44,238 bases of DNA, from NCBI RefSeq assembly GCF_002735925.1, contig NZ_PEDL01000022.1:1-44238 (forward strand). Direction: 5' to 3'. Position numbers and translations under genes: made by a program. Below, in pieces: positions 1 through 40,119 of the stretch (its first letter is position 1; every line of letters starts with the position of its first letter). This DNA is from Sporanaerobium hydrogeniformans. GTDB lineage: Bacteria; Bacillota; Clostridia; Lachnospirales; Cellulosilyticaceae. The notes beneath the pieces were generated by a model that made no database searches, was not told where the DNA came from, and worked only from the letters and a program-made list of their open reading frames with translations.

Positions 1-3000
1 AGGGAGTGTTCCTCCACCGGATGATGAGCTACCGCTTGAGCCTGAACCACCTCCGCCTGAAGAAGTAGCTTTAACTGTTACTTCCGTCCTAGCACGAAGT
101 GTTGTCCCTTCTACTGTTCCTTCTACAATGAATGTACCTGCTTGTGCATATTTTTCTGCTAAAATAGTATCCCATACTACATTTACCATGGCTTTTGTGG
201 TATCGCTATAGGTTGCTTCAACTTGCAGCGGTAATTGAGGTTTTGTACCCACTACTGTAGTTACTTGCACATTTTTTAGTTCTGTAATTGTAGGCGTTAT
301 AACAGATCCTGCACTTACAGTAATGGTAGCTGTTACCGTTCTTACCTCTCCTTGTGTATTTCCCTTTGGAATGCCTAGATAGGGTCTACCATTTGTATCC
401 CAATAGATTTTTTGTGCATAGGCATGTCTACCTGAATCATAAAGGGGTTCATAACTACCACTAACTAATTTCTTCTCTGGACGTCCATGATAGATTAAGA
501 TATCTTCTGTACCATCTTCTGATACAGTAAAGCTACTGTGTCCTGGTCCGTAAATTCCCGTATCTGGATTACTTATTAATACTGGATAACGTGTCTTTTC
601 CCATGAATTAGCATCCAATAAATTACTGTCTTCTGATGCTGTCAAAAATCCTACTGCATAGTTAGCATCTGTAGCACTTGCTGAATAAGAAACATATATA
701 TTGCCATTTCGCTTGATAACAGATGGCCCTTCATTAACACGATAGCCTTTAATCTCCCAACTATATGTAGGCACTGCAATACATACTGCTGAAGTTTTAA
801 GTGTATAAGGATTTTCCATCTCTGCAATATATAGATTAGAGTTAGGATTGTTTTGTGCCCAAATTAAATAACTTCTACCATTATGTTCAAAATAAGTATG
901 ATCTAATGAAAAACCACTAAAAGCTAATGTATCTCCAGCTGCTGCTTTAACACGTTCAGGGTTTTTCCATCCATCTGTCATAGGATCTTGTCCTTCACAC
1001 TCTATAACATGAGGACGTATTGCCCACTGATCTGTTGAAGAAATTGTTTGAGTATAATAGATATACCATTTTCCATTAATATAGTGAATTTCTGGTGCCC
1101 AAATATGTGGACTCCTTGTTCCTTGTAATGGCTCCATACTATAAACTACTTTTTCTTCAGCTGTATTTAATCCTTCTATTGTCTTAGCTCTTCTTAAAAC
1201 CAGCTTAATATATTGATACTTACCATCGTTATTATGGATAGAATCTGTATAAGAGGCTGTGAAATAATAATAGCCATCTGTATGTTTGTATACCCAAGGA
1301 TCTGCACGATCTGGAATCTTCACATTTTGATACTCATGGGTATTCACTGTACCTTTTACCTCAAAAGTTCCTTCTTTAGCATATTTTGAAGCATCTACTT
1401 GCTCCCATTTCACATTCATCTTATCTTTCATGCCCATGCTATAAGTCACATCTACTTTGTTAGGTAAAATAGGTGCTTGCCCTACTTGAGTACTAATACT
1501 TACTTTATCTTGTAAGCTTTGAATCGTTACTGCTTCTGGCTCATGTAAATATGTCTTAATACCGTCTTTGATTTCTTTTTGTGTTAAGGCTCTTTCTTGA
1601 ATACTAAATTCATCAACTGCTCCTTTAAAATAAGGATCGGGATATTTTGACTTTCCAATATAATTCATAGAATGACTTAATTGACTAGGTGTTACACGCA
1701 TATTCTCATTTCTTGCTATTTCCTCACCATTCATATAAATAATACAAGTTGTTCCTTCAAAGGTAATAGCAAGGTGTGCCCAATCACCTAATGGTAGTCT
1801 AAAGTTATCTACTGCATAAACAGTATCTTCTACACTTCCCACTACAAGGTGAAGCCCTATAGAATTCTTTTTACCACCAGGTGAACCATAGGAAGTGAAA
1901 AACATATTATCTCCAGCACCTGTGCCAAAATCAAAGATTCTTGCCCACCTATTATCTGCATCTGGTTTTACCCACATTTGAATAGTCATATTCGTCATAT
2001 CTTGAATAATATTATCAGGTAATACAATATAACCATCACTTCCATTTAAGTAAGCTGCACCTTCCTTGATACCCTGTGTCCAAGTTACTCCGCCTTTTAA
2101 CTGTGCATCTGCTTTATTTTCTAAGGTATCTTGTGCAGTTATTCCATGTGTCTCATCTAATTTATAAAGTGCTTCATTACCTGCTAAAACAACTTCTACA
2201 TTACAAACTGCTGTTTTTCCTTCATTTAAAGTCGTTACAACAATTTGTGTAGTTCCTATACCTACCCCATGTACTATTCCATTCTCATCTACTTTAGCCA
2301 CATTAGGATCTAATGATTCCCATTTAACTGCTTTTAAAGTTGCATTAGTAGGTTCTACTGTAGCTACTAATGTCCTTTCTTTCCCTACTTTTAATTCTAG
2401 TTGTGTTGTATTAAGCGTAACATTGGTAACCGGTACAGATACGTTGGTTGCTGGATTTACGGTAACCTTACAGGTAGCCATATAGCCCCCATCTTTTGTT
2501 TTTACTGTAATAGTTGCTTGTCCTTCTTTTAGACAAGATAACTTACCATTTTCTACTGTTACTATTGTAGCATCACTTGATTCCCAATTAACTTCTTGAT
2601 TATCCGCTGTTTCTGGCATAACTGTAGCTTCTAATTCTGTAACCTGCCCTACTTGTACACTTAAAGATGCCGGCAAGTTAACACCTGTTACTAACTCAAC
2701 CCTCTCAGGTGATTCTACTGGAATATGAGCTTGTAATCTTGCATATTCAGAAGCTGTTAGTGGTAAGATCGTACCATGTCGTGGTGCGGGTGAAGGCATC
2801 TTTTTATCCGTACTTGGTACTTCGATCCATTCACCTGTACCTAAATCCGTTGTATAGAAAGGTATATACCCTCTACCACCAAACTCATCTACAAACAAAT
2901 ACCACTTATCTTCTAAATTATCTTTAAAGGTCAAAGGTCCTTCAACCCATTTCACACCTTTTTTGACAAAGTCATTTGGAGTTCGTGTAAAGTCATTTGC

Positions 3001-6000
3001 AAAGATAGAACTTCCTACCTCTTGGAAAATCATTTTTCCTTCTTTAGATTGGCCTGGATTTGTCCCATTATCTCTCTCATCTTTTGTAAAGCGATATACC
3101 TTACCATTATTTTTAATCATAACCGTATCAATAACAGAATACCCTGGATTAAAGTATTCTTTCGCAGGTGAAAAGGTATAAAAATCTCTTGTTGTTGTAT
3201 ACATAATGCGGTGATGAGGGCTACCTGACTTACTTTCATCTGCATAGATTTTGGATGCCCAATACACCACATACTCCCCTTTATCATCATCATAGATGAT
3301 TTCAGGTGCCCAGGTACAACCTGCAAGCTCTGGAGAAACTTCCATTAATCTTTGTTTAGACCAGTTCACTAAATCACTAGATTCCCAGACAAAGATACTT
3401 CTACTACCATTTGTTTGAGCTGCTCCCCATCCTTTTCCTGCTGCAATTTGTAAGTCCGTAGCAATAAGATAGAATTTATCACCCTCTGGAGAACGTACAA
3501 TAACTGGGTCACGTAATCCTTCTTCTCCTAACTTTGCTGTCAAAACAGGCTTCGCATCATTCATTGCTTGCCATTTCAAAGGTGTATTCCCTTCACTTAA
3601 AGCAAAAAACATTTGCTCCTGCCCTTTTCCATCTCCAATGAAATAAGTAAATAAATAGCCTTCTAAATCTTCTTGTTTTGGAAGTTCCCTTACAATCACT
3701 GAAAATTCACGGGTATCCGTAATTGCTTCATGTTTAATGGTGGCTGTTAATGTAACCGTTTTGTCCCCATCTCCATGGTTCGGTCTTGTTACCTCTCCTG
3801 TAGGTGTAATAAGACTGGGTGAAGATTCCCAAGTAATGGTTGAACCATTTTCACCTATTGTAGGTAATGTCATATTTCCTCTTAAGTCATCTAAATTGTA
3901 TAAAGTAATAGCTTCTTTATCTAAAGCAACTATTTGTGTACTGCTAGGTGCCTTTATAACCTTTACTATAAATTGCTTTGTCGCTGTTTTTTCACCATCC
4001 GTAATCGTTGCTGTTAAAACTACTTCTGCGTCTGCTGCATTACTAGCAGGTCTCATTACTTTACCATCGTTTCCAATAACAGCTATATTACTAGATGCCC
4101 AAGTAATTGTAGTGCCATATTCTCCTTGAGTAGGAAGTTTAAGGTCTGCTTTAACAGCACTTATATCTCCTAAAGATAAGCTATCTACATCCTTTTGGAA
4201 ACCAAGTGCTTTATTAGCTGCACTGATTTTCTGAAGCTCTGCATCTGTTAATGTACGATTATAAACGGTAAAGTCACTTACTTTCCCTTTAACGTAATTA
4301 TCTGATACATAAGGAGCTCTACCAATAAAGTTCTTTGTATTAATAATGTCGCTTGCTAAATAACCTACGTCTGCAGTTTCTCCTAGTTTAACACCATCAA
4401 TATATATTCTGCCCACTTTGCCTTCTTGAGAGTAAGCAATTGTTTTCCAGATACCCCTTGGAAGAGGAGAACTTGCAGTGGTGTTTTTTTCACCACTCCA
4501 ACGTGTTTTTGTAACGGCTACTCTATAATTACCGCTTCCATCTTGAAGGAAGCCTAAGTAATTGGCGTTGCCATCGCTGTTAGGGTCTGTAGAAGAACCA
4601 AAGTTAAAAATCCAAAATGGATTTTTACTCTCTGGACTTATATAGACATGTGCTGTTATAGTTACATTATTTAAACCGTTTAAAATATTTTGTGGTAACT
4701 CTATGTAGTCATCTTTCCCATCTAGGACAACACCACCTCCTGGTAACCATTGTGCTCCATTTTTAAGAATAGCATTTCCAAGACTACCTGCTGAACTACT
4801 TGCCTCTGTTCCAGTTCCTTCATCAAAGGTATAATGTACAACCCTATCGTTGGCTACTGTAACATTCACTTCATAGTCTTTGCCATCATAAGTCACCTTA
4901 ATCTTAGTACTACCTAATGCAACTGCAGTGACTACACCTTCAGCATTAACTGTAGCTACACTTTCATCTAATGAAGAATAGGTTGCTTCACTTGTTACAT
5001 CTATCGTAGATGTATCTTCATTTTCTCTAGTTACTTTAGTAGCATGTGTTTTTCCTGTGTTTAGTGTATAGGCTGTCTCATCTAATCTAATCGCATAGCT
5101 TGTCTCTGAAGGAATGACTCTTAATGATGAACTATATTGAGATTCCTCTTCGTTTGTATACGTCATCTTATAGTAATAAGGCGTTCCTTGTGTTACATTT
5201 GTATCTTCATAGTTAGATGCTGCTCCGTTATAAACCTCTTTATAATCGCTATCATTATTTTCGGCTCGATATAATGTATAGCTTGTAGCACCTGTTATAT
5301 CTGACCAGTCTAAAGTAACAGAAGACGCTGTTTTTGCTGTACAACTCAAAGCTTCAGTATTTACTGGAATACTCTTTGCCCTATATTCACTAACATACAT
5401 ACTTCCCCAGTTACTTCTTAAACCTACTTTCCCAGAAGTATAAGTACTATTGACTACATTAATAATCTTCTCACCGTCTAGATAGCAATTAATTGTACTG
5501 CCATTAAAAGCTATTTTAAATGTATACCATTGATTGGCGTTTAATTGTTTTGAATAAGATTTCAATGTTGTTGTTCCACTTGCTGTTACTACTTCTAACC
5601 CGATAGTTTTTGTACCAGGATTATAAGTCATTTGATAATATTTACTACTATCTGCTTGCACACGCCCTCTTAGGTTAATCCATGAATCACCTGTAGGCAT
5701 GTATACTTTTGTTTCAATTGTATAATCTGACCAGGCTGTATCTCCTACCGTTAAATAGCCCTCGCTCGCTTTACGTTCATAAAAAAGTGCATCTTTCTCC
5801 GTTTCTGTAGGATTTTTCTTTAAACTCCATTCTGCATCCCAAGTTCCTGCATTAATAGACCATGCTTGGCTAGTGGTTTGAGGATTTTGGAATGTATCTT
5901 CAAAGAGTAAGATAGACGAACTTGCCCATACATTAACTGGCGTCAATCCTAAAAATGTACTCATTAGTACAGTTAAAGATAATAAAAGCGAAAGTGATTT

Positions 6001-6018
6001 CTTCCTTATATTTTTCAT
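1..6018 (-). CDS. Secreted multidomain arabinan-active enzyme with two GH43 domains (C-terminus outside window)
   Basis: The frame is open from an ATG at 6018 (AAGGAGGTAA just upstream) to base 1, 2,006 codons with no stop, so the C-terminus is missing. A signal peptide covers about residues 1-32. Then come a concanavalin-like (DUF1080/LamG-type) domain (about 32-210), fibronectin type III (212-303), Big_2 (305-390), a LamG domain (393-597), two Ig-like repeats (607-777), GH43 domain 1 (780-1100), two Big_2-like domains, a second LamG, an Ig-like domain, GH43 domain 2 (about 1565-1890), another Ig-like domain and a Gly/Ser linker at the edge. Each GH43 keeps the three expected acidic residues: D837, D964, E1026 (EGP motif) and D1573 (ADPW), D1706, E1763 (EGP). 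GH43 enzymes include arabinofuranosidases, arabinanases and xylosidases. Domain 2 looks like an exo-arabinofuranosidase, but the exact subfamily of either domain is inferred. A surface anchor may follow the linker outside the window. Confidence 0.9.
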   Translation of the reverse strand, partial: MKNIRKKSLSLLLSLTVLMSTFLGLTPVNVWASSSILLFEDTFQNPQTTSQAWSINAGTWDAEWSLKKNPTETEKDALFYERKASEGYLTVGDTAWSDYTIETKVYMPTGDSWINLRGRVQADSSKYYQMTYNPGTKTIGLEVVTASGTTTLKSYSKQLNANQWYTFKIAFNGSTINCYLDGEKIINVVNSTYTSGKVGLRSNWGSMYVSEYRAKSIPVNTEALSCTAKTASSVTLDWSDITGATSYTLYRAENNDSDYKEVYNGAASNYEDTNVTQGTPYYYKMTYTNEEESQYSSSLRVIPSETSYAIRLDETAYTLNTGKTHATKVTRENEDTSTIDVTSEATYSSLDESVATVNAEGVVTAVALGSTKIKVTYDGKDYEVNVTVANDRVVHYTFDEGTGTEASSSAGSLGNAILKNGAQWLPGGGVVLDGKDDYIELPQNILNGLNNVTITAHVYISPESKNPFWIFNFGSSTDPNSDGNANYLGFLQDGSGNYRVAVTKTRWSGEKNTTASSPLPRGIWKTIAYSQEGKVGRIYIDGVKLGETADVGYLASDIINTKNFIGRAPYVSDNYVKGKVSDFTVYNRTLTDAELQKISAANKALGFQKDVDSLSLGDISAVKADLKLPTQGEYGTTITWASSNIAVIGNDGKVMRPASNAADAEVVLTATITDGEKTATKQFIVKVIKAPSSTQIVALDKEAITLYNLDDLRGNMTLPTIGENGSTITWESSPSLITPTGEVTRPNHGDGDKTVTLTATIKHEAITDTREFSVIVRELPKQEDLEGYLFTYFIGDGKGQEQMFFALSEGNTPLKWQAMNDAKPVLTAKLGEEGLRDPVIVRSPEGDKFYLIATDLQIAAGKGWGAAQTNGSRSIFVWESSDLVNWSKQRLMEVSPELAGCTWAPEIIYDDDKGEYVVYWASKIYADESKSGSPHHRIMYTTTRDFYTFSPAKEYFNPGYSVIDTVMIKNNGKVYRFTKDERDNGTNPGQSKEGKMIFQEVGSSIFANDFTRTPNDFVKKGVKWVEGPLTFKDNLEDKWYLFVDEFGGRGYIPFYTTDLGTGEWIEVPSTDKKMPSPAPRHGTILPLTASEYARLQAHIPVESPERVELVTGVNLPASLSVQVGQVTELEATVMPETADNQEVNWESSDATIVTVENGKLSCLKEGQATITVKTKDGGYMATCKVTVNPATNVSVPVTNVTLNTTQLELKVGKERTLVATVEPTNATLKAVKWESLDPNVAKVDENGIVHGVGIGTTQIVVTTLNEGKTAVCNVEVVLAGNEALYKLDETHGITAQDTLENKADAQLKGGVTWTQGIKEGAAYLNGSDGYIVLPDNIIQDMTNMTIQMWVKPDADNRWARIFDFGTGAGDNMFFTSYGSPGGKKNSIGLHLVVGSVEDTVYAVDNFRLPLGDWAHLAITFEGTTCIIYMNGEEIARNENMRVTPSQLSHSMNYIGKSKYPDPYFKGAVDEFSIQERALTQKEIKDGIKTYLHEPEAVTIQSLQDKVSISTQVGQAPILPNKVDVTYSMGMKDKMNVKWEQVDASKYAKEGTFEVKGTVNTHEYQNVKIPDRADPWVYKHTDGYYYFTASYTDSIHNNDGKYQYIKLVLRRAKTIEGLNTAEEKVVYSMEPLQGTRSPHIWAPEIHYINGKWYIYYTQTISSTDQWAIRPHVIECEGQDPMTDGWKNPERVKAAAGDTLAFSGFSLDHTYFEHNGRSYLIWAQNNPNSNLYIAEMENPYTLKTSAVCIAVPTYSWEIKGYRVNEGPSVIKRNGNIYVSYSASATDANYAVGFLTASEDSNLLDANSWEKTRYPVLISNPDTGIYGPGHSSFTVSEDGTEDILIYHGRPEKKLVSGSYEPLYDSGRHAYAQKIYWDTNGRPYLGIPKGNTQGEVRTVTATITVSAGSVITPTITELKNVQVTTVVGTKPQLPLQVEATYSDTTKAMVNVVWDTILAEKYAQAGTFIVEGTVEGTTLRARTEVTVKATSSGGGGSGSSGSSSSGGGTLP

Positions 6019-6085
6019 CTTTACCTCCTTATAAACTAGTTTTTATATTGCTCTCACTTTTTTAAAATTATTAACATAAGGAAAA

Positions 6086-6125
6086 TGCGAACCGTGAAAC
6101 CTTATGGATGGTTCCGTGGTTCGCA
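6086..6125 (-). terminator. Hairpin between sugar-binding lipoprotein and GH43 gene
   Basis: Arms at 6086-6101 and 6110-6125 pair with few mismatches (TGCGAACC core against GGTTCGCA). On the minus strand the hairpin is followed by TTTTCC. It lies 3' of the binding-protein gene and 67 bp upstream of the GH43 start, so it probably terminates or attenuates transcription between them. I see no clear separate promoter for the GH43 gene, so partial read-through is possible. Confidence 0.6.
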
Positions 6126-6159
6126 CTTTTTATGTTCTAAACCTATTTATATATTATTT

Positions 6160-7224
6160 TTAATATTGACGTTGTGGCATAATTTCTGCTGCTGTTTCTG
6201 CTGGATATACGCCTTCTTCTACATATTGAATTTTTTCTACTGTTTTGCCTTCCATAATAGCTTTTGCAAGCTCTGCAACGCGTGGACCATGAAGTGGGTT
6301 ACACTCTACAGATACGTTCATATCGCCAGCAATCATTGATTCAAAAGCTGCTTTAACTGCATCAAAAGATACGATAATAACATCTTTAGCTGGAACTTTA
6401 CCTACCGCTTTAAGAGCATCGATTGCACCAAAAGCCATGTTATCATTTTGAGCGATTAAGATATCAATTTTTTCTCCTGATTTAAGGAAAGATTCCATAA
6501 CCTCTTGACCTTTAGCTTGTGTAAATTCACCAGTTTGTTCAAGAACAATTTTGTAATTGCTATATTTAGATAATTCGTCTCTTACACCTTTTGTACGACC
6601 AATTTCAGCTGAAGAACCGATAGTTCCTTGAAGTACTGCTACATTAAGATTTTCACTACCTCTTCCAAGACCATTCATGTATTCTGTTAACCATTTTACA
6701 GCATCTACACCTTCTTGATAGAAGTCAGATCCTACCCAGCAAGTATAAAGAGATTGGTCTGTTACATTAATCATACGGTCTACGATAATAACTGGGATAC
6801 CTGCATCTTTTGCTTCACCAAGCACTGTTTCCCAACCTGTTTCTGTAACAGGAGCGATAACAATCACATCTACTTCTTGAGAGATGAAGTCACGTACTGC
6901 TTTAATTTGATTTTCTTGTTTTTGTTGTGCATCTGCAAAGATAAGTTTAAAGCCATTTGCTTCTGAAAGTGTTTCCTTCATAGAGTTCGTATTGGCTACA
7001 CGCCAGTCAGATTCTGCACCTACTTGAGAGAAACCAACTGTAATTAAATCATTCGCTGGTGCTTCTTCTTTTGCTTCTTCCTGTGCTGGTGTCTCTGCTG
7101 GTTTTGCTGCTTCAGTTTGTGCAGGTGCTGCTGATTCTTTAGGAGCACTAGCTCCTCCACCACACCCTACTAACATGGTGCCTAACATTGCTGCCCCTAA
7201 TAAAATACTAAATAACTTTTTCAT
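6160..7224 (-). CDS. YtfQ-like sugar-binding lipoprotein (Peripla_BP_4), probably a sensor component
   Basis: A 354-residue lipoprotein with a lipobox LVGC near residues 18-21 and an Ala/Pro/Glu-rich linker to about residue 58. The mature part closely follows the galactofuranose-binding protein YtfQ of E. coli: VGFSQVG, the DAQQKQENQIKAVR segment, IAPVTETGW and the QGTIGSS stretch. The start is supported by AAGGGGGT seven bases upstream of the ATG. No ATPase or permease of the YtfRT/YjfF type is present. Instead it is the last gene after a response regulator and a histidine kinase on the same strand. In Geobacillus stearothermophilus a similar trio (AraP-AraS-AraT) senses L-arabinose extracellularly. 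A sensing role is therefore inferred; a binding protein for transporter genes elsewhere is the alternative. Confidence 0.85.
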   Translation of the reverse strand: MKKLFSILLGAAMLGTMLVGCGGGASAPKESAAPAQTEAAKPAETPAQEEAKEEAPANDLITVGFSQVGAESDWRVANTNSMKETLSEANGFKLIFADAQQKQENQIKAVRDFISQEVDVIVIAPVTETGWETVLGEAKDAGIPVIIVDRMINVTDQSLYTCWVGSDFYQEGVDAVKWLTEYMNGLGRGSENLNVAVLQGTIGSSAEIGRTKGVRDELSKYSNYKIVLEQTGEFTQAKGQEVMESFLKSGEKIDILIAQNDNMAFGAIDALKAVGKVPAKDVIIVSFDAVKAAFESMIAGDMNVSVECNPLHGPRVAELAKAIMEGKTVEKIQYVEEGVYPAETAAEIMPQRQY

Positions 7225-7400
7225 TTTTTTACCCCCTTAATGATTTTTAATAGCTGAGTAAGTATTGTTTATACTGTTATTATAGAAAAGTTTATCTTAA
7301 CTTAATACAGACTATATTTTGAATAATTTTGAATTATTTATTGAGTTATCTATTTATTGTGGTTATATTGTCCAAAAAGTTTGTTTTTTTATTATAAAAG

Positions 7401-8879
7401 TTATATTATTTTAGAGCTTATCTTTTTTTCTTCCAAATCCTTTTCTAAAGGTTTCATAGGAAGATGGACAACAACCGTCGTCCCCACATTGTACTCGCTT
7501 TCAATCCTAAGTCCATACTCTTTACCATAATTTAGACGTATCCTTTCATTGACATTAGCTAATCCAAAACCTGTATCTAACGTTACAGGTCCTTCCTTTT
7601 TTATACTTTTTCTAATTTTATCTAAGGTTTCCTGCGTCATACCAATGCCATTATCTTTTACCGTCAGTAAAATGGCTTGATTGCTATATTCGCCTTCTAC
7701 ACTAATTTTACCTTTTCCTCTTTTTTGTTTAATGCCATGATAAAGAGCATTTTCTACAATAGGTTGCAAAGTAAGCTTAAGTATTGGAAATTCACTTAAC
7801 TCTTGTGGAATATTGATTTCATATTCTAAAATATCTGCATATCTAAACTGCTGAATTTGTAAATAGCTTCTTATATGACTTTCCTCTTCTTTTAAGGTAA
7901 TGTAATCCCGTCCCTTACTTAAACTTACTCTAAAAAACTCTGATAATGCAGAAACCAAATCAACAACTTCTTCACTTTGCCCATCTTCTGCCATCCAACT
8001 AATGGCATCTAAGGTATTGTAGAGGAAATGAGGGTTAATCTGAGCTTGTAAAAGCTTTAATTCTGCTAGCCTTAGAGTATTTTGTTTACTTTTAATGTTG
8101 TCTACTAACTTATTAATCTTAACAAGCATATTATTAAAACTACTTTCTAAGGTAGCAATTTCATCCCCTCCCCCCTTAATTTTCTGCATGGTAAAATCTC
8201 CAGTTCCTACTTGCTTTGTAATTTCACATAAATGCCTAATTGGTTTTGAAATACTATCAGAGATCACAATAACTAACGCCCATGTTACCCCTAATACCAC
8301 CATCAAAATACAGAAAACCACCTTGAGCGTCGTATGAATATCTGTCTCAACAGCTTTTCTTACCTTTTCAAGTTCTAAGGCTTCATAATACATATATTCC
8401 CGAATTTCTTCTGTAATTAATTTGGTTAAAACATAAATATCATTATCTAAGATAGACATATTTTCATCATAGTGCCCTGTTTCTTTACAATTATTGATCA
8501 ATTTGTAAATACTCTTTTCAAGAATTACTAGATTACGTTGAGCCATCCTTACTTGCTTTTTATTACTTTCTAAGGCAGTACCTTCCTTGAGCTGTTCCAG
8601 ATAGTCATCCATTTCCTGTAAAATTTGCTCTATGTTAGAGTTTTCGTATTCATCTGAACCAATAGCAATACGATACATCGTATAATCAATTTGCTCTTTA
8701 AACCGCATATCAAACTCACTAGCAATCATGACATCATTAACAATGGGCGTATATTTATCCGTATAAGTGCTTAGCTTGATAATAAGATAAATGACCATAC
8801 ACATCATAGGTATCAGCATAAAAAACATAAACAGTTTTAACTTAGTTCGTAAGGATATGTTAGTAAACTTCTCCTTCAT
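7401..8879 (-). CDS. YesM/LytS-type sensor histidine kinase
   Basis: A 492-residue membrane kinase. TM1 is at residues 16-36, an extracytoplasmic helical region of about 150 residues follows, TM2 is at about 187-208 and a HAMP domain at about 210-262. The phosphoacceptor region has the His_kinase signature QAQINPHFLYNTLD (PF06580). The ATPase shows the N-box ENALYHG, DNGIGM and GFGLANV. AAGGGGGACATT precedes the ATG. It lies 19 bp after the response regulator gene and 176 bp before the sugar-binding lipoprotein gene, and probably forms one transcript with them. The extracellular part has no obvious sugar-binding fold, which suits signalling through the lipoprotein as in AraPST. That link is an inference from gene order. 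Confidence 0.9.
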   Translation of the reverse strand: MKEKFTNISLRTKLKLFMFFMLIPMMCMVIYLIIKLSTYTDKYTPIVNDVMIASEFDMRFKEQIDYTMYRIAIGSDEYENSNIEQILQEMDDYLEQLKEGTALESNKKQVRMAQRNLVILEKSIYKLINNCKETGHYDENMSILDNDIYVLTKLITEEIREYMYYEALELEKVRKAVETDIHTTLKVVFCILMVVLGVTWALVIVISDSISKPIRHLCEITKQVGTGDFTMQKIKGGGDEIATLESSFNNMLVKINKLVDNIKSKQNTLRLAELKLLQAQINPHFLYNTLDAISWMAEDGQSEEVVDLVSALSEFFRVSLSKGRDYITLKEEESHIRSYLQIQQFRYADILEYEINIPQELSEFPILKLTLQPIVENALYHGIKQKRGKGKISVEGEYSNQAILLTVKDNGIGMTQETLDKIRKSIKKEGPVTLDTGFGLANVNERIRLNYGKEYGLRIESEYNVGTTVVVHLPMKPLEKDLEEKKISSKII

Positions 8880-8898
8880 AATGTCCCCCTTTATTTTT

Positions 8899-10524
8899 CT
8901 ACTCTTTTCTATTTACCTTGCGATATTCCTTAGGCGTACATTGCTGCGTTTTTTTAAAAAGGTAGCTAAAATAGTGGGGATCCTTATACCCTACAGCATA
9001 ACCTATCTCAAGTGTTTTCATATTGGAACATCTTAATAGTTCTTTCGCCTTTTCCATCCTGATTTCTGTCAAATAAGAAATAAAGGTTTGTCCCGTTTCT
9101 TGGCTAAAAATGGTACTAAAATGACTAGGGCTAACATTTACATATTCTGCTACTGAATTAAGGGAAATCGTCTCCTCACTATATTTTTCACGAATATATT
9201 CCTTTGCTTCATCTAAAAGTAAATTATATTTATTGGTAGATACCCTATCTCTAAATTGTAAGGCTTGATTTAAGATGTTCTCTAATGCCTCCTTTGTATC
9301 TTCCTTATTTTGAATGACTGTCGTTACCTCTTTAAAATCACCACACACTTCCACAATATATTCTTCACTATAACCAAGTTGCTTAATAAAAGTAATAACA
9401 CTAAAGTAGATATTCATCATAATATACTGTCGAAACATTAAAGAATCTACTCCGGTCCCCATTTCTTTAAAATAGCTTTGACTAAAAAGAGGAACTTCAC
9501 TTCTTAATCCGTTTCTTAAAAAACTTTCTATAGGCTTTTTATCAAACTTAGTGACATCTATATTTTTTATGCTAATAGACTCATCTTCCCTCATGGGCCT
9601 ATACTCCCCTAACTGCTCATGATAAATAACCTTTTTATCTGGCATAATATAGCTACAGGCTATCGCCTTACTAGCTGCCTCAAAGCTTCTAATAAGTTCA
9701 CTTAGCCTATTCACCTCTTGTCCAACACCTATACAATAAGATAAATTCTCTTCTTTTTTTAAGATATCTTCTACAAGGGTAATACCTTTCTTTTCTAAAA
9801 GCTTTATGCTACCACTTCCACCTTTTATAAGAACAACCCAGCCTTCTTCTTCTCGATCAAATAATATGTATTCTTGTGACTGCTGCAATTTGTCTTCTAA
9901 TTGTCTGCCTATACCTAAACTACTTTCCCAGTAGCCATTTACCTCTTTATCTTTAATAAAAGTTTTTATAAGTAATATATTATACTTAGGTGAATTAAGC
10001 TCAATAGAAAGCTCTTTCCCTCTTTTAATAAGTTCAGATACTGAAAGCTTTAAAATCATTAAGTCATTAAAAAACTGTTTTTTTTCCTGTTTTTCATTTT
10101 CATATGTATCTAATTTATACTTATCATAAAATCTTTGTTGCTCTTTTTGTTTATTAATAATCGTCGCTACATGCTTCATAGATTCTAAAAGCTTTTTGGC
10201 GGGTATAGGCTTGAGTAGGTATTCAATAACCCCTATACTAATGGCTTCCTTAGCATATTCAAACTCATCATAACCACTGAGTATAATAATCTTCGTTTGA
10301 GGCATGGTCTCCCTAATCAATCTACTCAGTTCTAAACCATCCATAAAAGGCATCTTAATATCTGTAATAATAATATCTGGCTGCGTTTCCTGAATCATCG
10401 GATAAGCCATCTCACCATCTCCGGCTTCCCCTACTAAAAGAAATCCATTATCCTCCCAATTAATATTCTTTTTCATTCTATCCCGTACTGCAAATTCATC
10501 TTCCACCAAAAATACCTTGATCAT
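8899..10524 (-). CDS. YesN-type response regulator (REC plus AraC HTH)
   Basis: A cytoplasmic response regulator of 541 residues. The receiver domain has acidic pocket residues E8-D9-E10, phosphoacceptor D55 (TDIKMP) and a Lys-Pro near residue 105. A long variable middle region follows, and the C-terminus holds two AraC-type helix-turn-helix motifs (about 435-535, ending GYKDPHYFSYLFKK...TPKEYR). I chose the ATG at 10524 because the receiver begins there and GTGAGAGGG lies just upstream; a TTG six codons earlier is in frame but less likely. It is the partner of the kinase 19 bp downstream. Likely targets are the divergent transporter operon and the arabinan genes, judging from position and from the repeated A+T-rich boxes in the 587-bp intergenic region. 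Confidence 0.9.
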   Translation of the reverse strand: MIKVFLVEDEFAVRDRMKKNINWEDNGFLLVGEAGDGEMAYPMIQETQPDIIITDIKMPFMDGLELSRLIRETMPQTKIIILSGYDEFEYAKEAISIGVIEYLLKPIPAKKLLESMKHVATIINKQKEQQRFYDKYKLDTYENEKQEKKQFFNDLMILKLSVSELIKRGKELSIELNSPKYNILLIKTFIKDKEVNGYWESSLGIGRQLEDKLQQSQEYILFDREEEGWVVLIKGGSGSIKLLEKKGITLVEDILKKEENLSYCIGVGQEVNRLSELIRSFEAASKAIACSYIMPDKKVIYHEQLGEYRPMREDESISIKNIDVTKFDKKPIESFLRNGLRSEVPLFSQSYFKEMGTGVDSLMFRQYIMMNIYFSVITFIKQLGYSEEYIVEVCGDFKEVTTVIQNKEDTKEALENILNQALQFRDRVSTNKYNLLLDEAKEYIREKYSEETISLNSVAEYVNVSPSHFSTIFSQETGQTFISYLTEIRMEKAKELLRCSNMKTLEIGYAVGYKDPHYFSYLFKKTQQCTPKEYRKVNRKE

Positions 10525-16434: not shown

Positions 16435-16450
16435 AATAGAGGTGTGGACT

Positions 16451-18238
16451 ATGTATACCCCAAATTTCTCCAATAGAAAGTCTAAAAAACTTAAAAGCTC
16501 TCGTTTTAAATTCATAACATCTATTAAAAAATTTAAAATAGGTACAAAAATATTATTAAGCTTCTCTTTTATTCTAATAAGTATTCTAATCATATGTTTA
16601 AATAATATTTTTTCCTTAAAAAGAGTAACCGATTCTTCTACGACTATTACCTCTATCTATTTACCTAGCATTGTGCAAATGCAACAAATGCAAAGTGATT
16701 TTAAGGATTTACAATATTATAGTCATCAGCATTTTATTGCTCCTGATCAAGCTACCAAAAATGCCGTAACAGAAAAAATTACACTTACTAAAGCCTCTAT
16801 CCAAAATCATTTAAACTCCTTACAAAGCAACTCACATTATGAAGAAGAGATAATTTCCAGCTTTGATAACCTTTATCAATCTTACATTATATTATTTGAT
16901 AAAAGTATTGAGCAATCTAGTGAAGGAAAAGCTTTTGCAGCAAGACGTACAGCTTGGGGAGATATGAGTAATTTAGCCGAAGAGCTTAATCTCCTTATTA
17001 CTCAAATAATCCAGACTGAAATTATAGGCTCTCAAAAAGAACAGCAAAATACTCAAGCTACTTATACACAAGCTATCAGTCAAGCCTATCTTAGCCTTTT
17101 TATAATTCTACTTATCATGCTAAGTAGTCTTTATCTTCTTCATCGTACTACCGTTTTCCCTATCCAAAAAGCAGCACAAAATGTTAATTTGCTTATAGAA
17201 GGAATACAAAAAGGTAACGTTAATTTAAAACAAAAAATGAATATTTCATATGAAGATGAAGTAGGAAAACTTCTTTATGCATTTAATCTTTTTATAAATC
17301 ATTTAGAAAATATTATCGCATCTATCGTAACAACAAATACACAAATTAAAGATTTTGCCCAAAGTAGTCTTACTAATATCGCTCATACCAATCAAAATAT
17401 AGAAAAAACATCCTTTTCCTTAGAAGCCTTATCCGCTGGTCTACAAGAAAGTGCCTCTACCATTCAAGAGCTTAATGCCTCTACCGATGAAATCGATAAT
17501 ATGATGAACAGTATTATCACACATGCTCAAGAAGGTTCCTTCACAGCTAATGAAATCTCTGAAAGAGCCCTGTCCTTAAAAAACAAAGCTCTAATTTCTC
17601 AAAATAAGGCCTTAAGTGTTATTTCTAAGGTAGAAAAACAACTCGTAGTTGCTATAGAAGAGAGTACTTCGGTTAATAAAATTCAGCAACTGGCTGATGC
17701 TATCTTGGATATTACATCTCAGACTAACCTTTTAGCTCTTAATGCAAGTATAGAAGCAGCTAGAGCTGGTGAAGCCGGACGAGGCTTTTCTGTGGTAGCA
17801 GAAGAAATCCGTAACTTGGCTGAACATTCTAAAAAAACTGTATCAGAAATTCAAAACATTGCTACTACAGTTATTAGAGCAGTAAATACTTTGTCCGATA
17901 CTTCTCAGTCTATTACTACTTTTATTAATGAAACTGTCCTATCCGATTATATTTTTTTAGTTAATACAAGTGAACAATATAATATAGATGCTACGAAAGT
18001 AGGAGACCTTATGCTTCATTTTAATCAGATTACTTCAGTGATGGATACACATCTTACTTCTACCATCGAAGCTATTAAGCAAATTACAACTATTATTAAC
18101 GACAATGCTACTAATATAGAAAGTATCTCTCAAAAAACCTCTAATATCGTTACTGATATGAATATAATTCACCAGGATATGAACAGTAGTATAGATTCAA
18201 TTAATGCACTAAATAGTGTTATTAAGGTTTTTAGCTAA
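16451..18238 (+). CDS. Methyl-accepting chemotaxis protein
   Basis: A chemoreceptor of about 595 residues. TM1 lies near residues 30-52, a four-helix-bundle-like extracellular domain follows to about 205, TM2 is [19 protein letters not shown], and then a HAMP domain and a long coiled coil. The conserved hairpin tip is [20 protein letters not shown] followed by [18 protein letters not shown], at about residues 420-455. No C-terminal CheR-docking pentapeptide is seen. The ATG at 16451 is preferred to a GTG three codons upstream because GAGGTG then sits six bases before the start. It follows the GH36 gene by 16 bp and is the last gene before a strong terminator, so it is probably co-transcribed with the sugar importer. 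Confidence 0.9.
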
Positions 18239-18348: not shown

Positions 18349-21300
18349 TTACTTATCTTTTTCTTTAACTACTAATAAATTATCTAATCTTTCCAAAACT
18401 GACATAAGTTCTGCCCTGGTAAGTCCTCTCTTAGGTTCCATAGTTCCATCTGGTAAACCCGCTATTAATCCTGTTTGTTGGCAATAGTCTACTGCTTCTT
18501 TATACAAAATAGACTCATTATCTTTAAATGTCATACTAGGTTTTACTTTTTCTAACTTACCATTTGTAATCTCAAATAAAACTTGTGCGAGAAGTTCACG
18601 TGTAATGTTGCTTTCCATAGTAGAGCTAATTTGTTTTAATAATTTTTCTTCTAACTTAGAACTAATAGAAGCTGTGCTATAGAAAGACCAAGAATCTTTA
18701 TTTGTAATATACTTCTCTACAGTGCTCCTTGGAAGTTTCATGTCTATACTATTATTGCTAACCAATACCCTATCAAGAAATACAAAAGCTTCTGTTAAAG
18801 ATAGTGGTGATTCCGGCTTAAAACTACCATCTTCATAGCCATAAACTATCCCCTTTTTCATCAGTCTATCTATAGACCCTTTTGCCCAATGTGTTGGTTT
18901 CAAATCTGTAAAACCTCTTACTCCTTGCTGTTTTATGGCTATAGTAGCTACATTAGCTTGTAGTCTTATGTTTAGTTTATCAAGTACAGAAATATCTTTA
19001 TTAATAAGGGCTAATTCTTCTTTACCTAATTTTTCAGACTGGATAGTTGTTATCTTCATTCCTTCTGGAAGAGTATAAGGCACATTATCTAATACAACCG
19101 TTTTAAACTGCTTTTTTTCTTTTTCACTTCTGTTTTGAACCTGCGCGATAAATTGTTCTAAAGTTATAGGCGAAGTAGATTTTTGTGGTATTGATGAACT
19201 ACCAGAAGAGTTACTTGATGAGCCACCTGAAGAATCATTTACCTTTAAGACTAAGCTGTTTTTAGCTTGTAATAGTTTTTGATGAGTTATATCTATTTCA
19301 TTTTGTGAAGCTTTTTCTCTATCTAATACTAACTGAGCTTCTTGTAAAACCTCCTGCATACTTATCCAAGATTTTTCTGTATATTTCTCTTGCTCCAACA
19401 TTCTAACTTGTTCTATAAGTTCTAGGAGTAGTGTTTTGTCTACAGGATTATCTATCTTTGCTTTGGCAATTTCAAACTTATCAAAGTTAGGTGCATATTG
19501 AGTAACATTACTAAACTTATATGAATTGTCGTTATAGAAAGTGATAATGTTATCTCCTTCCTCTAATACAATATCTACTACTATATTACGTGTAGAGTCC
19601 CATGATAATGTATTGATGAAATATACTGTTTGAGGCGTATCTCCATTTACACTAATCTGTGCATAACGCTCTACTAAGTCAGTATTATACGGGTGGATGT
19701 AGCCATTAGGGTGCTCTGACGTTACAATCGGTGGAGCTGGCTCATTGTTGATGTAGTCAATAGATAGCTTATAATCACCTGCTTCTTTTACATTCACATT
19801 AATGCTCATGCCATTTTCCCTATTAGCACCAATTTCTCCTACTAATTGACCATTTGAAACATTTTCATTAGCCATAATTTTTGCTGTCCCAAATAAGTTA
19901 CCGTCCTCTGCTTCAATAACTATAATTTGTGTTTTGTTAGCTGTTTTAGCATAGTTAACTTGTATACCATCTAAATCAATATTTTGTATGCTATTTAACT
20001 TAAGAAGATTGATACCTGCTGTCAAATAAACTTTAAGAGGTTTGCTTTCTACTAAGCTACTAGAAGCTGTGAGTGAATAGTTGTCTAGTACATTCCACTT
20101 TGTATTTATAGCAGATTCTTTTTTTGCATCAGGTGCATAGGTTACTACTTTTTTAGAGAGAGTAGGTGTGGCACTTGTTTGAGCTGCATATTCTAGAATT
20201 ACATCATAATAACCATTTTCCTTCACTACAACTGGGAAAATTATTTCTCCCGTTCCATGCAAATAACCTGCTGAATGATAACCTGACTTTGTATTATGAA
20301 GTGTGAAGCTACTACTATATTGTGCTTCTTCTGCTTCAAATCGATAATTATAGGTTTCCTCTTCTCCTATTTGACCTTCATAGGTTAATTGAATTTTATC
20401 AAGTGTTGCATCTACACCACTGTGTTTACTTAGTTCCAGATTATGATTGCCTGCTGTTAAATCTATATAAACTGTATCGCAGCCGAAATAATGAGATTTA
20501 ATAGTGGATGCATATGTGCGAATACTATGTGTTTCTCCATCTACTTTAAGGAGTTGTTTTGCAAGTTTACCTTGCGCTCTATTTTGTGGTGCTTTTCCTT
20601 CCACAACTTGAGTAAGAGGTGCTTCATTACCATAGTAAATTTCTAATTTATACTTACCATCTTGTGGTACATTCACATTAAAGGTTACCTTACTTGAAGG
20701 TGAAGATAAACCTTTTACATAATAGCCATTTGACGTATTTTCTCCTTGTATCTGCTGCGTTGTACAGCCTACTAAATTAGCTGCTTCTGCTTCATATGTT
20801 TTCGTCCATATCTTTTCATAGCTAGAAGCTTTACCTGTGGCTGGAGAAATAATTGCATAATAAGCATCTAATTTATCTGCATCAGGTATTGTTAAGTTAA
20901 GAGTCCCATTTGTAATTGGAACATCTCCATCAAACTCTACATACGGTTTATCAAAATGGCCATAGAAACCTGTAAATTTAGTACTATATAATTTTAAATG
21001 AGCTGTACTCTCCCCACCAAAAGTCCTTGTTTCATTTAATCCTGTTAAGACTATGGAAGATGCACCTTCTTCACCCCCAAATAATACATAGGCTCTTTCC
21101 TTATCATCATCTATTGAGGCTAAACCATATAGATTATCACCCTCTGTATTATAAATCTCTGTAGGAACTGTATTCCCTGACATATCAGCATACCATTTAT
21201 AAAGCCACCATGCTCCATTAGGTTTATTTGCATCTGCCGCTAGTTCATTTAATGAGTTAGCTAAATACCAATAAGGAAGGCATGCATATACTTTACTATT

Positions 21301-21660
21301 TTCAAAGCGTGCAATCCATTGTATAAGATGCCCTGGCGTTCCATTATCATGAAATTTAGCATATTCATTAATAACAATCTTAAGTGGGCCTATATTATAC
21401 TTTTCTTCTAGGCGTTTATAATCTGCCAAATGCTTTTCCCATGTATACATGAAGTCTCCATCACTTTGATAAAGTTCATGCCATGTCATAATATCAGGCA
21501 CACAATTGTTCTCAGAAACAAATTTCATAAAGGTATCCATTTCCCAATAATTATAGTCCGCTAGATTTGGTCCTGCTACTCGAGCACTAGGGTCAATATC
21601 CTTTACTAAGTCATAGACTTCTTTCCAAGCTTGGCAAAATTCACCATTTCCTGTTCCCAT
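18349..21660 (-). CDS. S-layer-anchored GH39-like enzyme, C-terminal part (split from the upstream reading frame by a frameshift)
   Basis: This frame continues the catalytic domain begun in the gene part ending at 21606. Residues 1-285 are the second half of a TIM barrel, with the likely nucleophile E99 in INEYAKF, WHEL, and an aromatic-rich LPYWYLANS segment. Three beta-sandwich, CBM6/35-like domains follow (about 288-425, 438-575, 580-730), each opening with an EAE or EAED motif. Then come a FIVAR-like helical repeat (735-805), a Ser/Gly linker and SLH repeats at about 914-965 and 1040-1095, with a weaker one between, for binding secondary cell-wall polymer. The ATG at 21660 has no convincing ribosome binding site, and starting there would omit the catalytic acid. 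Adding one base near 21665-21669 joins both parts into a 1,939-residue protein. Confidence 0.8.
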   Translation of the reverse strand: MGTGNGEFCQAWKEVYDLVKDIDPSARVAGPNLADYNYWEMDTFMKFVSENNCVPDIMTWHELYQSDGDFMYTWEKHLADYKRLEEKYNIGPLKIVINEYAKFHDNGTPGHLIQWIARFENSKVYACLPYWYLANSLNELAADANKPNGAWWLYKWYADMSGNTVPTEIYNTEGDNLYGLASIDDDKERAYVLFGGEEGASSIVLTGLNETRTFGGESTAHLKLYSTKFTGFYGHFDKPYVEFDGDVPITNGTLNLTIPDADKLDAYYAIISPATGKASSYEKIWTKTYEAEAANLVGCTTQQIQGENTSNGYYVKGLSSPSSKVTFNVNVPQDGKYKLEIYYGNEAPLTQVVEGKAPQNRAQGKLAKQLLKVDGETHSIRTYASTIKSHYFGCDTVYIDLTAGNHNLELSKHSGVDATLDKIQLTYEGQIGEEETYNYRFEAEEAQYSSSFTLHNTKSGYHSAGYLHGTGEIIFPVVVKENGYYDVILEYAAQTSATPTLSKKVVTYAPDAKKESAINTKWNVLDNYSLTASSSLVESKPLKVYLTAGINLLKLNSIQNIDLDGIQVNYAKTANKTQIIVIEAEDGNLFGTAKIMANENVSNGQLVGEIGANRENGMSINVNVKEAGDYKLSIDYINNEPAPPIVTSEHPNGYIHPYNTDLVERYAQISVNGDTPQTVYFINTLSWDSTRNIVVDIVLEEGDNIITFYNDNSYKFSNVTQYAPNFDKFEIAKAKIDNPVDKTLLLELIEQVRMLEQEKYTEKSWISMQEVLQEAQLVLDREKASQNEIDITHQKLLQAKNSLVLKVNDSSGGSSSNSSGSSSIPQKSTSPITLEQFIAQVQNRSEKEKKQFKTVVLDNVPYTLPEGMKITTIQSEKLGKEELALINKDISVLDKLNIRLQANVATIAIKQQGVRGFTDLKPTHWAKGSIDRLMKKGIVYGYEDGSFKPESPLSLTEAFVFLDRVLVSNNSIDMKLPRSTVEKYITNKDSWSFYSTASISSKLEEKLLKQISSTMESNITRELLAQVLFEITNGKLEKVKPSMTFKDNESILYKEAVDYCQQTGLIAGLPDGTMEPKRGLTRAELMSVLERLDNLLVVKEKDK

Positions 21661-24167
21661 TTTACCCCCAAACCAAATTTGTCAGGCTCATTGAATAGTA
21701 CATAAACATACTTATCTTTATTTTTATCCTGCTTAGCCTTTTCAAGAACACTTCTTACTACACTTTTGTAGTCCTCTAATCCTTTATATTCATAAGGCCA
21801 TTGATAATAAGTGTCTTGCACATAAATCTCTATGTGGTCGATATTAGGATTTGCTTCAAGTATAGTATCTGCTGTTCGTGTGCCATCCCCTGATGGATGT
21901 TGCAGACCGTCTGGCGCCTTTTGAACCATAACTTGTGGTTTAAGTTGACCTAAAAGATCAACAGTTGGAATATTGGGTTCACTCATCCCATAGAGGAAAC
22001 CTGTTGCACCATATTGAATAGGCCCTGTCGGCTTACTCATATCAAAAATAGCTAAAGGTCCCATAGTGCTATCTGCGAAATCAATATAATAATTTGTAGT
22101 TGATTTACCATTTGGTGATGTTACCTTGATGCAATAGGTAAAACTATCTACCTTTTCTATTTCATATATGGCATTGCTATTTCCTAGAATAATATCTTTA
22201 GGTGTTTCTACCTCTTCTAGACTGCTCACAGGATGCTTATAATGGGTTGTTCCTTCTGGCATGGTAATTATTTCTCCATCAATAGTAAAACTTATTAAAG
22301 ATGTATTATATTCCTCACCAACCAAATCCATAACCTCTTCCCTCGTTAAGAACTTATTAAAAAACCTAAAATTATCAATTTTTCCTGTAAAGTTTTTATC
22401 AGAAGTATATAAACCTTGTCCTAATGAATTGTACACTAAAGAATTTAAGTTTTCTTGTTTAAAGAATTCACTAAGGCCCTCTGATACAGTTGTAGCTGAT
22501 AAACGTTTTACAACAGGGCTATCTAGTCCCGCTATTTCACTACCATCTATGTATGCTGCAAAAGTATCTCCTTTCATTGTAATGATGATGGTTTGCCATT
22601 CATTTGCTACCATTTCTTTCTCAAATTTAATATCCAAACCATCCTTAGCTATACCTGCACCATTTCTGCCACTTAACAATCTTATATTATAATCACCACC
22701 ACCACGTGTAATAGCAAATTCCGGATCTACCCAGTTTCCATTATGCCCATTATAATTGCCCCCTAGTGGATAGGAACTTGTACAGAATAAACGAGTATAT
22801 TGAGTGTTATTGATTTCCGCTGGATTAACCTCCATTGCAATAGTTAAACCTTCTTCAGCTTCAATATTACTAAATAAAGTATCAGGTAGAGTTAACCAAC
22901 TTCCAGAATTAGCATCACCACCCATTAGATTTAGTACTTTACTTCCCTTTTCTTCATCATCCACAATTTGTGCAGTAACCCCTAATGTAGCATCAGCTAT
23001 ATTGGTAATACTATTAACTACCTTATTATCCTCTATTGCTTCAAAGTTATACTCAAAGGCTATACCATTATTAGTTAATGTCTTTTCTTTTAAACCATCA
23101 ATAGCTACTTGTAGTTTCTCTACAGCTTCTTCTAACTGTCCCTCACAAGGTTTAATAGTTAAGAAGTCCTCCATTTTAACGATACTGACCTGTAAATAGT
23201 TATAAGAACTTGTAGTATAATTACCTTTTTCTATAGCTTTTGCAGTATTTATAAGCTGAATCAGCTCTGTTGGATTGCCAGGTCCTTCTATCTTAGCAAT
23301 ATCTACTTCTCCTAAAAAAGAATTATAAAACCTAAACTCATCCACTTGACCTGCAAAATTCTCATCTGAGGTATAAAGAGACTGCCCAATAGCACAATGA
23401 ATAAGTTTATCTATATAAGAAGGTTCAAAAAACCTTTTTAAAGCTTCGGTGATATCTGTTTCATTAAAGCGTTTTTTGATACTTGAATCTAAATCACCTA
23501 CTTTCCTTCCATTTAAATATACAGCATAATCATCCTCTTTCATAGTAACAATAAGGCGCTGCCATGTATCAGTTTCAAGCCCCTTTGTAAAATAAGTATC
23601 TACACCATATTGTGCTTTACCATCCGATTGAGTTCCACTAAACATTCTTAAGTTATAGTCCCAACCGCTTCCACCTCCACTACCTCCACGCAAAATAGCA
23701 AATTCGGGGTCTAGCCAATCCCATCCTCCATTTTGACCACGTTCCGTTCCTCCAAGAACATTAGGACTTGCACTAAAAATACGCGAGAATGAATGTCCGT
23801 TTACTGCAGATGGTTTAACTTCCATAGAAATAGCAAAGCCATCTTCACCGCTCACCTGAGAAAATAAATCATTAGGTAAAGTAAGCCAGCTCCCTGTTGT
23901 TGCTGGCCCTCCTGGAAGATTAAGTACCAAAGAGCCTTTTTCATCATCTCTTACTACAGTTGCTGAATCTCCAAGTTGAGCGCTTGAACCTCCTGAAATA
24001 TCGTTTTTGACTTCTTGCCCTACTACATCTTCAAAAGAATACCGATAAGCAAGACTTGGTACTTCATTTTGCAAACTATTTGCTACTATACCATTCGCTG
24101 GGAAACAAACCATGGTCATAGCCATACTTAATATAAATGCTATCGTTCGTTTTCTCCAATTATTCAT
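21606..24167 (-). CDS. S-layer-anchored GH39-like enzyme, N-terminal part (frameshifted)
   Basis: An 853-residue frame starting at an ATG at 24167 with GGGAGG upstream. It has a signal peptide (1-30), a LamG domain (about 40-290), a FIVAR-like helical segment (about 297-360), a second LamG domain (375-615), a small beta domain and the first half of a TIM-barrel catalytic domain (about 695 on), including YVYVLFNEPD with the likely acid/base E827. The frame then leaves homology after GLG and stops at 21606. The barrel resembles GH39-like clan A enzymes of Firmicutes, a family that includes galactosyl-arabinofuranosidases acting on arabinogalactan proteins; family and substrate are inferred. Without frame restoration this product lacks the nucleophile, the carbohydrate-binding domains and the SLH anchor. 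Confidence 0.8.
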   Translation of the reverse strand: MNNWRKRTIAFILSMAMTMVCFPANGIVANSLQNEVPSLAYRYSFEDVVGQEVKNDISGGSSAQLGDSATVVRDDEKGSLVLNLPGGPATTGSWLTLPNDLFSQVSGEDGFAISMEVKPSAVNGHSFSRIFSASPNVLGGTERGQNGGWDWLDPEFAILRGGSGGGSGWDYNLRMFSGTQSDGKAQYGVDTYFTKGLETDTWQRLIVTMKEDDYAVYLNGRKVGDLDSSIKKRFNETDITEALKRFFEPSYIDKLIHCAIGQSLYTSDENFAGQVDEFRFYNSFLGEVDIAKIEGPGNPTELIQLINTAKAIEKGNYTTSSYNYLQVSIVKMEDFLTIKPCEGQLEEAVEKLQVAIDGLKEKTLTNNGIAFEYNFEAIEDNKVVNSITNIADATLGVTAQIVDDEEKGSKVLNLMGGDANSGSWLTLPDTLFSNIEAEEGLTIAMEVNPAEINNTQYTRLFCTSSYPLGGNYNGHNGNWVDPEFAITRGGGDYNIRLLSGRNGAGIAKDGLDIKFEKEMVANEWQTIIITMKGDTFAAYIDGSEIAGLDSPVVKRLSATTVSEGLSEFFKQENLNSLVYNSLGQGLYTSDKNFTGKIDNFRFFNKFLTREEVMDLVGEEYNTSLISFTIDGEIITMPEGTTHYKHPVSSLEEVETPKDIILGNSNAIYEIEKVDSFTYCIKVTSPNGKSTTNYYIDFADSTMGPLAIFDMSKPTGPIQYGATGFLYGMSEPNIPTVDLLGQLKPQVMVQKAPDGLQHPSGDGTRTADTILEANPNIDHIEIYVQDTYYQWPYEYKGLEDYKSVVRSVLEKAKQDKNKDKYVYVLFNEPDKFGLGVKWEQEMVNFAKLGKKSMT

Positions 24168-38569: not shown

Positions 38570-40119
<1,550 letters not shown>

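Follow-up and report, generated by a model that had tools for sequence, protein, structure and literature searches.

A sugar-binding lipoprotein of a probably split Gaf-like uptake operon and its probable sharing with a YesM-type kinase in Sporanaerobium hydrogeniformans

The gafA locus and its missing transporter

The stretch of Sporanaerobium hydrogeniformans DNA analysed here (44,238 nucleotides, the whole of contig NZ_PEDL01000022.1, called C14 or the window) carries on its reverse strand a YesN-type response regulator, a YesM-type sensor kinase and a YtfQ-like sugar-binding lipoprotein, followed by a large secreted enzyme. The genome assembly (3.74 Mb in 64 contigs) is 99.66% complete. 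With a probability of about 0.7, these genes are part of a Gaf-like uptake operon that has been split by two enzyme genes and whose single binding protein, GafA, serves both the transporter and the kinase. The features concerned are as follows.

1 to 6018, minus strand: GH43-type secreted enzyme, 2006 amino acids read, open at the window edge (PF04616, Laminin_G_3 and Big domains)
6082 to 6129, minus strand: hairpin 3' of gafA (-23.9 kcal/mol, z -6.8)
6160 to 7224, minus strand: gafA-like (YtfQ-like) sugar-binding lipoprotein, 354 amino acids (PF13407, NCBIfam YtfQ, PDB relatives, conserved residues)
7243 to 7391, minus strand: conserved gafA promoter region, with a AAAACAAACTTTTT box and TCTGTAT-20-TATAAT (alignment to three relatives and to the region that precedes gafB on contig C17)
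7401 to 8879, minus strand: short YesM-type sensor kinase, 492 amino acids, no dCache match (PF06580, PF02518, PF00672)
8322 to 8777, minus strand: extracellular four-helix domain of the kinase, about residues 35-186, the putative docking domain for GafA (model, structural match to LytSN, linkage to GafA)
8899 to 10524, minus strand: YesN-type response regulator with an AraC-family DNA-binding domain (PF00072, PF12833, PF17853)

The initial annotation had given the order regulator, kinase, YtfQ-like lipoprotein, and the coordinates and the Pfam and NCBIfam families bear it out. The lipoprotein has Cys21 within a lipobox, as read from its sequence, and is a Peripla_BP_4 protein (PF13407, 159.2 bits in Pfam) whose best NCBIfam family is YtfQ (298.6 bits, under the model cut-off of 510) and whose nearest solved relatives are the YtfQ-type proteins 6hyh, 6hbd, 5ocp and 2vk2. 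In Pfam, the kinase has HAMP, His_kinase and HATPase_c domains and the regulator has receiver (Response_reg), GGDEF-like and AraC-type helix-turn-helix (HTH_18) domains; the combination of a PF06580 kinase with a Response_reg/AraC-type regulator makes this a YesM/YesN pair. The regulator start is taken at the ATG at 10524, the TTG at 10542 being a mechanical start only.

There is no CUT2 permease within the window, and no ATP-binding cassette (ABC) ATPase among the 24 of 28 listed window frames that were scanned with Pfam. To this extent the lipoprotein does stand without ATPase and permease, as first described, but it is not an orphan: gafB, gafC and gafD are present in the same genome, at C17:494-4103, and overlaps between contig ends place them on the same strand beyond the left edge of the window. 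The idea that the genome has no Gaf-type transporter was rejected when the permeases and DNA of a relative, used as queries, located gafBCD. Two double-permease loci on contig C3 were rejected as partners of GafA because their adjoining binding proteins are RhaS/LsrB-like. The best NCBIfam families of the C17 genes are YtfR (690.2 bits), YtfT (298.3 bits) and YjfF (349.0 bits), so each of the four Gaf-like proteins has the corresponding YtfQ/YtfR/YtfT/YjfF family on top. The initial annotation had named a YtfRT/YjfF-type transporter without a binding protein of its own, and dependent on this lipoprotein, together with a lack of any effect of lipoprotein loss on regulation, as the finding that would speak against a three-component sensor. 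The first half of that is what the genome holds: C17 has no binding-protein gene next to gafBCD, and the 34 PF13407 matches of the genome all lie on other contigs. A chemoreceptor gene comes after gafD.

G001, the nearest relative, is a single contig of 4,714,237 bases in which the genes form one run of LacI-type regulator, araA, FGGY kinase, araD, regulator, kinase, gafA, gafB, gafC and gafD. Its regulator and kinase are 84% and 85% identical to those of the window and its GafA 87% (blastp; 91% in the search of the family genomes), while gafC and gafD on C17 are each 91% identical to their G001 counterparts. At the DNA level, C17:418-4098 is matched at 83% by the G001 stretch that runs from the gafA-gafB gap through gafD, while for the last part of gafA and the beginning of the gap the match is to the window instead. 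The transporter beyond the window edge is likely to be the split remainder of the lipoprotein's own operon.

The junction can be traced through the contig ends. The left end of the window falls inside the GH43-type protein. A second GH43-type protein, 56% identical to that of the window over the first ~1,000 residues, is encoded by C39, a whole contig of 6,107 bases whose right end is the same linker as the left end of the window. Exactly 99 final bases are common to C39 and the reversed window, and exactly 99 first bases to C39 and C17, which begins with the last 37 codons of an apparent SLH domain (17.7 bits, under the cut-off of 20.8). Equal overlaps of this kind are a known leftover of short-read assemblers at a collapsed repeat. 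Searches of the assembly gave no third copy of either shared end and, since two contigs enter and two leave, the left end of the window leads to C17, via C39 or directly, on the assumption that no contig end is missing from the assembly. The order would then be regulator, kinase, gafA, GH43A, GH43B and gafBCD on one strand, joined through an unseen repeat, and the tandem GH43-type genes seem to end in SLH domains. The distance from gafA to gafB would come to about 12.5 kb plus two copies of that repeat. With two such genes between gafA and gafBCD, the transporter would fall just outside the window. Thus, an apparent orphan sensor can stem from a contig edge, and it was through exact matches between contig ends that the missing transporter was recovered.

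Promoter and hairpin sequences suggest how the two parts may still be controlled together. The kinase-gafA gap contains AAAACaaACtTTTT, and TCTGTAT 20 bases ahead of TATAAT; these boxes are common, partly or wholly, to G001 and two further relatives (G003 and G021), and a copy of the promoter region lies ahead of gafB (C17:274-422, 75% identical). The hairpin 3' of gafA has counterparts in the gafA-gafB gap of G001 and G021 (loci L180 and L182) and on C39 and C17, and these also beat all 200 shuffles in folding, that of C17 weakly (z -3.0). The promoter region may act as a site for the regulator, and gafA and gafBCD would remain under common control. In the window, TCTGTAT-N14-24-TATAAT occurs once, at gafA (0.14 expected), and AAAACAAACTTTTT with two mismatches gives four matches against 2.8 by chance; because the box searches gave gafA only or near-chance counts, no regulon is demonstrable in the arabinan genes of the window. 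Among the 65 gaps between kinase and binding-protein genes that were listed, some have recognisable boxes and others do not.

Linkage of the kinase domain to GafA-like proteins

GafA matches at E <= 1e-40 are found in 10 of 24 genomes of the family, including the genome studied here, which has one. A scan of named genomes supplied the best 80 loci of more, to which 16 further stretches were added, and the resulting 96 loci were annotated by phmmer with seeds from the window and its genome. As the loci were picked for GafA, its place in them is informative and its presence is not. They contain 53 kinases above 100 bits, 42 with a short extracellular part (149-172 amino acids) and 11 with a long one (234-262 amino acids). 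Within 600 bases of the kinase there is a GafA-like gene in 41 of the 42 short-kinase loci, downstream in 33 and upstream in 8; in L107 it lies upstream and overlaps the mechanically extended kinase frame. A CUT2-type ATPase is also present in 41 of the 42, the exception (L195) being a contig of 4.1 kb. In relatives, the genes follow the order regulator, short kinase, GafA, ATPase, permease, permease.

The extracellular domain of the kinase alone (alignment A1, 35 rows) was also used as a query, with at most nine candidates scored per genome. It gave matches in 5 of 398 genomes of the phylum and, within the order, in 75 of the 392 genomes sampled (at least 76 places), the genome of the window included in both. 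The 69 places fetched (67 of the 76 from the order and two from the phylum search, the other nine being the window and loci already in the set) comprise 66 kinases and three chemoreceptors. A GafA-like binding protein, scoring above 100 bits to that of the window, is encoded on the same strand no more than 700 bases away for 61 of the 66 kinases, and a same-strand CUT2-type ATPase accompanies the same number. Two of the exceptions to the first count are contig ends (L259 and L289), one has no binding protein (L295) and one has it on the opposite strand near the regulator (L310). The last, L263 (G751; kinase at 7116-8639, minus strand), is another split, with the GafA-like gene 4.4 kb downstream rather than adjacent. 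As a control, a PF13407 match lies within 1.6 kb of 4 of the 28 other YesM kinases of the S. hydrogeniformans genome, and within 3 kb of 6, distances being taken between domain matches on either strand. Since kinase, regulator and GafA-like protein are a recurring unit, binding-protein-dependent sensing is likely. The three-component sensor proposed in the initial annotation holds as a unit, but not in having a sensor protein separate from the transport protein.

The extracellular part of the kinase was correctly noted to have no visible sugar-binding fold: AlphaFold2 predicts a plain bundle of four helices for residues 30-190, with a mean predicted local distance difference test (pLDDT) score of 90.3. 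In structure it comes closest to the ligand-binding domains of chemoreceptors (6its, Z 15.7). LytSN of the XylFII-LytSN structure (5xsj_L) is matched with Z 14.2 and a root mean square deviation of 1.9 over 121 residues, and TorS with TorT comes 31st (Z 12.2); for helical bundles, a Z below about 13 says little. In a PDB sequence search with the domain, the 60 of 131 matches listed contain only unrelated or designed proteins (best E 0.0013). The fold therefore agrees with docking and is no proof of it; taken with the linkage, the model suggests that GafA probably docks on this domain.

In the proposed mechanism, the GafA lipoprotein would deliver a furanose sugar to GafBCD, as in the GafABCD/YtfQRT-YjfF uptake system. 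The same GafA would dock, in a sugar-dependent manner, on the short YesM kinase at its four-helix extracellular domain, and the kinase would signal by phosphorelay through the YesN regulator to the gafA and gafB promoters; the regulator may perhaps also act on the arabinan genes. The arrangement is probably largely ordinary, with the one twist that the transport binding protein also reports the sugar to the kinase.

Several points weigh against this reading. All four Gaf proteins score below the NCBIfam equivalog cut-offs (510, 850, 535 and 363) and are therefore named Gaf-like rather than equivalogs. The repeat that links the contigs has never itself been seen. Four-helix bundles align easily to one another, LytSN is only 8th in the list, after chemoreceptor domains and a designed bundle, and a Foldseek search with the domain had no match at E <= 0.001. 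Alignment A1 was derived from GafA-linked kinases, which leaves the linkage count short of full independence, and distance was measured differently for the control and for the kinase count. Finally, among 107 distinct kinase loci (both locus sets, identical kinases counted once), 45 have one binding protein before the ATPase, 52 have two or more and 10 are arranged otherwise; with two or more GafA-like proteins in 52 of 107, sensing and transport seem often to be divided. The three kinds of binding protein are not scattered in the tree (16 changes, against a lowest value of 58 in 200 shuffles). In favour of a shared role, the ten closest to that of the window all come from loci with a single binding protein.

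The main alternative is a plain transport operon, in which GafA serves GafBCD only and the four-helix domain of the kinase detects something directly. In relatives, GafA does belong to the transporter operon, and the chemoreceptor domains that head the structural matches were solved with small ligands. This explanation is nonetheless unlikely, given that the kinases with this domain are so regularly linked to GafA and that, in loci with two binding proteins, the neighbour of the kinase is not the one immediately preceding the ATPase in 33 of 52 (in 19 it is), which points to a binding protein used by the kinase; specialised sensor copies thus seem to exist. A dedicated sensor lipoprotein with no role in transport, of the AraPST or XylFII kind, as the initial annotation had it, would fit a gene that adjoins the kinase and regulator and lies apart from gafBCD in its own genome. 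It is very improbable, since this is the only GafA match in the genome at E <= 1e-40 while gafBCD is intact, and the closest relatives have a complete operon that relies on this one protein. That gafA is separated from gafBCD by misassembly only, with the true place of the GH43 genes elsewhere, is hardly credible even for a link through an unassembled repeat in a 64-contig assembly, as gafA, the hairpin and a GH43 gene lie in one contig within the window and the promoter copy before gafB on C17 would be needless in an uninterrupted operon.

A broader proposal can be put forward, though only tentatively and with the odds somewhat against it. In a signalling design common in the Lachnospirales, a dedicated four-helix docking domain would let the kinase share a Gaf-type furanose-binding lipoprotein with the transporter. 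Many loci, including those of spirochaetes, would have a sensor copy of their own, and the same domain also sits on chemoreceptors beside CUT2 transporters (3 of the 69 fetched places). If so, one protein could signal import, gene switch-on and swimming toward freshly released sugar before it takes the pyranose form. The kinase extracellular domain predicts an adjoining Gaf-type binding protein and makes binding-protein-coupled furanose sensing directly testable.

The chemoreceptors bearing the domain are at L297:3878-5608 (plus strand, 101.8 bits), L311:6873-8603 (minus strand, 74.3 bits) and L309:3914-5602 (plus strand, 33.5 bits). Each adjoins a CUT2 transporter set, those of L297 and L311 lying directly beside Gaf-like permeases. 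The chemoreceptors of the window (16442-18238) and of C17, considered as additional partners of GafA, have no match to the kinase-domain model at E <= 1.

The ligand and comparison with known systems

Seven residues of the lipoprotein (W74, R75, D149, R150, N260, D261 and D288) are identical in all 175 aligned sequences, that of the window included. Three of them, W74, R75 and D149, are the sugar-site Trp, Arg and Asp of the GafA family. According to PMC10191376, Arg38 and Asp111 are sugar-site residues of the Escherichia coli protein, and R75 and D149 occupy these positions when counted on an alignment with 2vk2 and 5ocp. Phe40 is thought to limit the Shewanella protein to L-arabinofuranose (PMC10191376); Asn78 stands at this position here, as in the Mycobacterium smegmatis protein, which suggests that L-arabinofuranose and D-galactofuranose might both be bound. 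Because araA and araD adjoin the operon in G001, L-arabinofuranose is the likely ligand, and GafA may perhaps also take D-galactofuranose.

The system shares with GafABCD/YtfQRT-YjfF (PMC10191376) the best NCBIfam matches of binding protein, ATPase and two permeases, the retained sugar-site residues and, in the nearest relative, linkage to araA and araD. It differs in its sub-equivalog scores, in the coupling to a YesM/YesN pair, in the two GH43 genes that probably separate gafA from gafBCD, and in having Asn78 where the arabinose-only Shewanella protein has Phe40. A literature search by titles and abstract openings found no publication on a GafA protein coupled to a kinase.

AraPST of Geobacillus stearothermophilus is an arabinose-related set of binding lipoprotein, kinase and regulator, and ChvE and the maltose and ribose binding proteins belong to systems in which the binding protein is shared. 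The regulator that works with XylFII-LytS in Clostridium beijerinckii is presumably of the YesN type. The resemblance to AraPST on which the initial annotation was built is a loose one. Binding protein, kinase and regulator are adjacent here too, but the partner transporter there is araEGH (PMC4194401) and here of Gaf type, the gene order differs, and Geobacillus divides sensing and transport between two binding proteins (PMC10384115), against one here; this comparison was by description. In XylFII-LytS-YesN (5xsj), to whose LytSN the kinase extracellular part aligns in fold only, a sugar-binding protein likewise works with a kinase and regulator, but the sensing protein is separate from the transport one (PMC10384115), whereas here one protein would do both. 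CuaDSR of Ruminiclostridium cellulolyticum similarly combines a lipoprotein, a kinase and an AraC-type regulator in the control of an ABC importer; its cellobiose sensor is a dedicated protein, distinct from CuaA, which serves transport (PMC10384115). In Pseudomonas aeruginosa, by contrast, the sugar-binding protein GltB is needed to activate the GtrS-GltR kinase-regulator pair tied to glucose transport (PMC7927077); sugar, organism and kinase are different, and the comparison is by description only. The present system probably resembles those with a shared binding protein (GltB-GtrS; ChvE and the maltose and ribose proteins) more than AraPST.

Surrounding genes and related arrangements

Divergent genes in the window encode a CUT1-type binding protein, two permeases, a chemoreceptor and a protein of the Melibiase family; the sole NCBIfam match of the last is beta-L-arabinopyranosidase (475.7 bits against a cut-off of 1100). 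Further along are araA and araD, both above their NCBIfam cut-offs, a LacI-type regulator and an FGGY sugar kinase for which the label araB is by position only. At 18349-24167 (minus strand) are two frames of 1103 and 853 amino acids that overlap by 55 bases, with SLH and CBM35 domains in one and Laminin_G_3 in the other; they are possibly a single SLH-type enzyme read in two frames. At 38570-40119 (minus strand), frames of 307 and 209 amino acids overlap by 4 bases, the first with an alpha-L-arabinofuranosidase C-terminal domain and the second matchless; the two may be a single enzyme gene broken by a frameshift or an error in the sequence.

Variations on the arrangement occur elsewhere. L189:10302-12209 (minus strand) encodes two tandem PF13407 stretches, that is, a double binding protein within a Gaf cluster, and proteins of 621-635 amino acids occur in clusters with a long kinase in L189, L158, L185 and L187, the tandem PF13407 having been scanned in L189 only. 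At L141:1689-4451 (plus strand), between two GafA-like genes, a frame of 920 amino acids matches both the kinase extracellular domain (115.7 bits) and the regulator (238 bits) and is apparently a kinase-regulator fusion. The S. hydrogeniformans genome itself has further sets of regulator, kinase and PF13407-type binding protein (L057, L062, L064 and L054), each with a single-permease CUT2 transporter.

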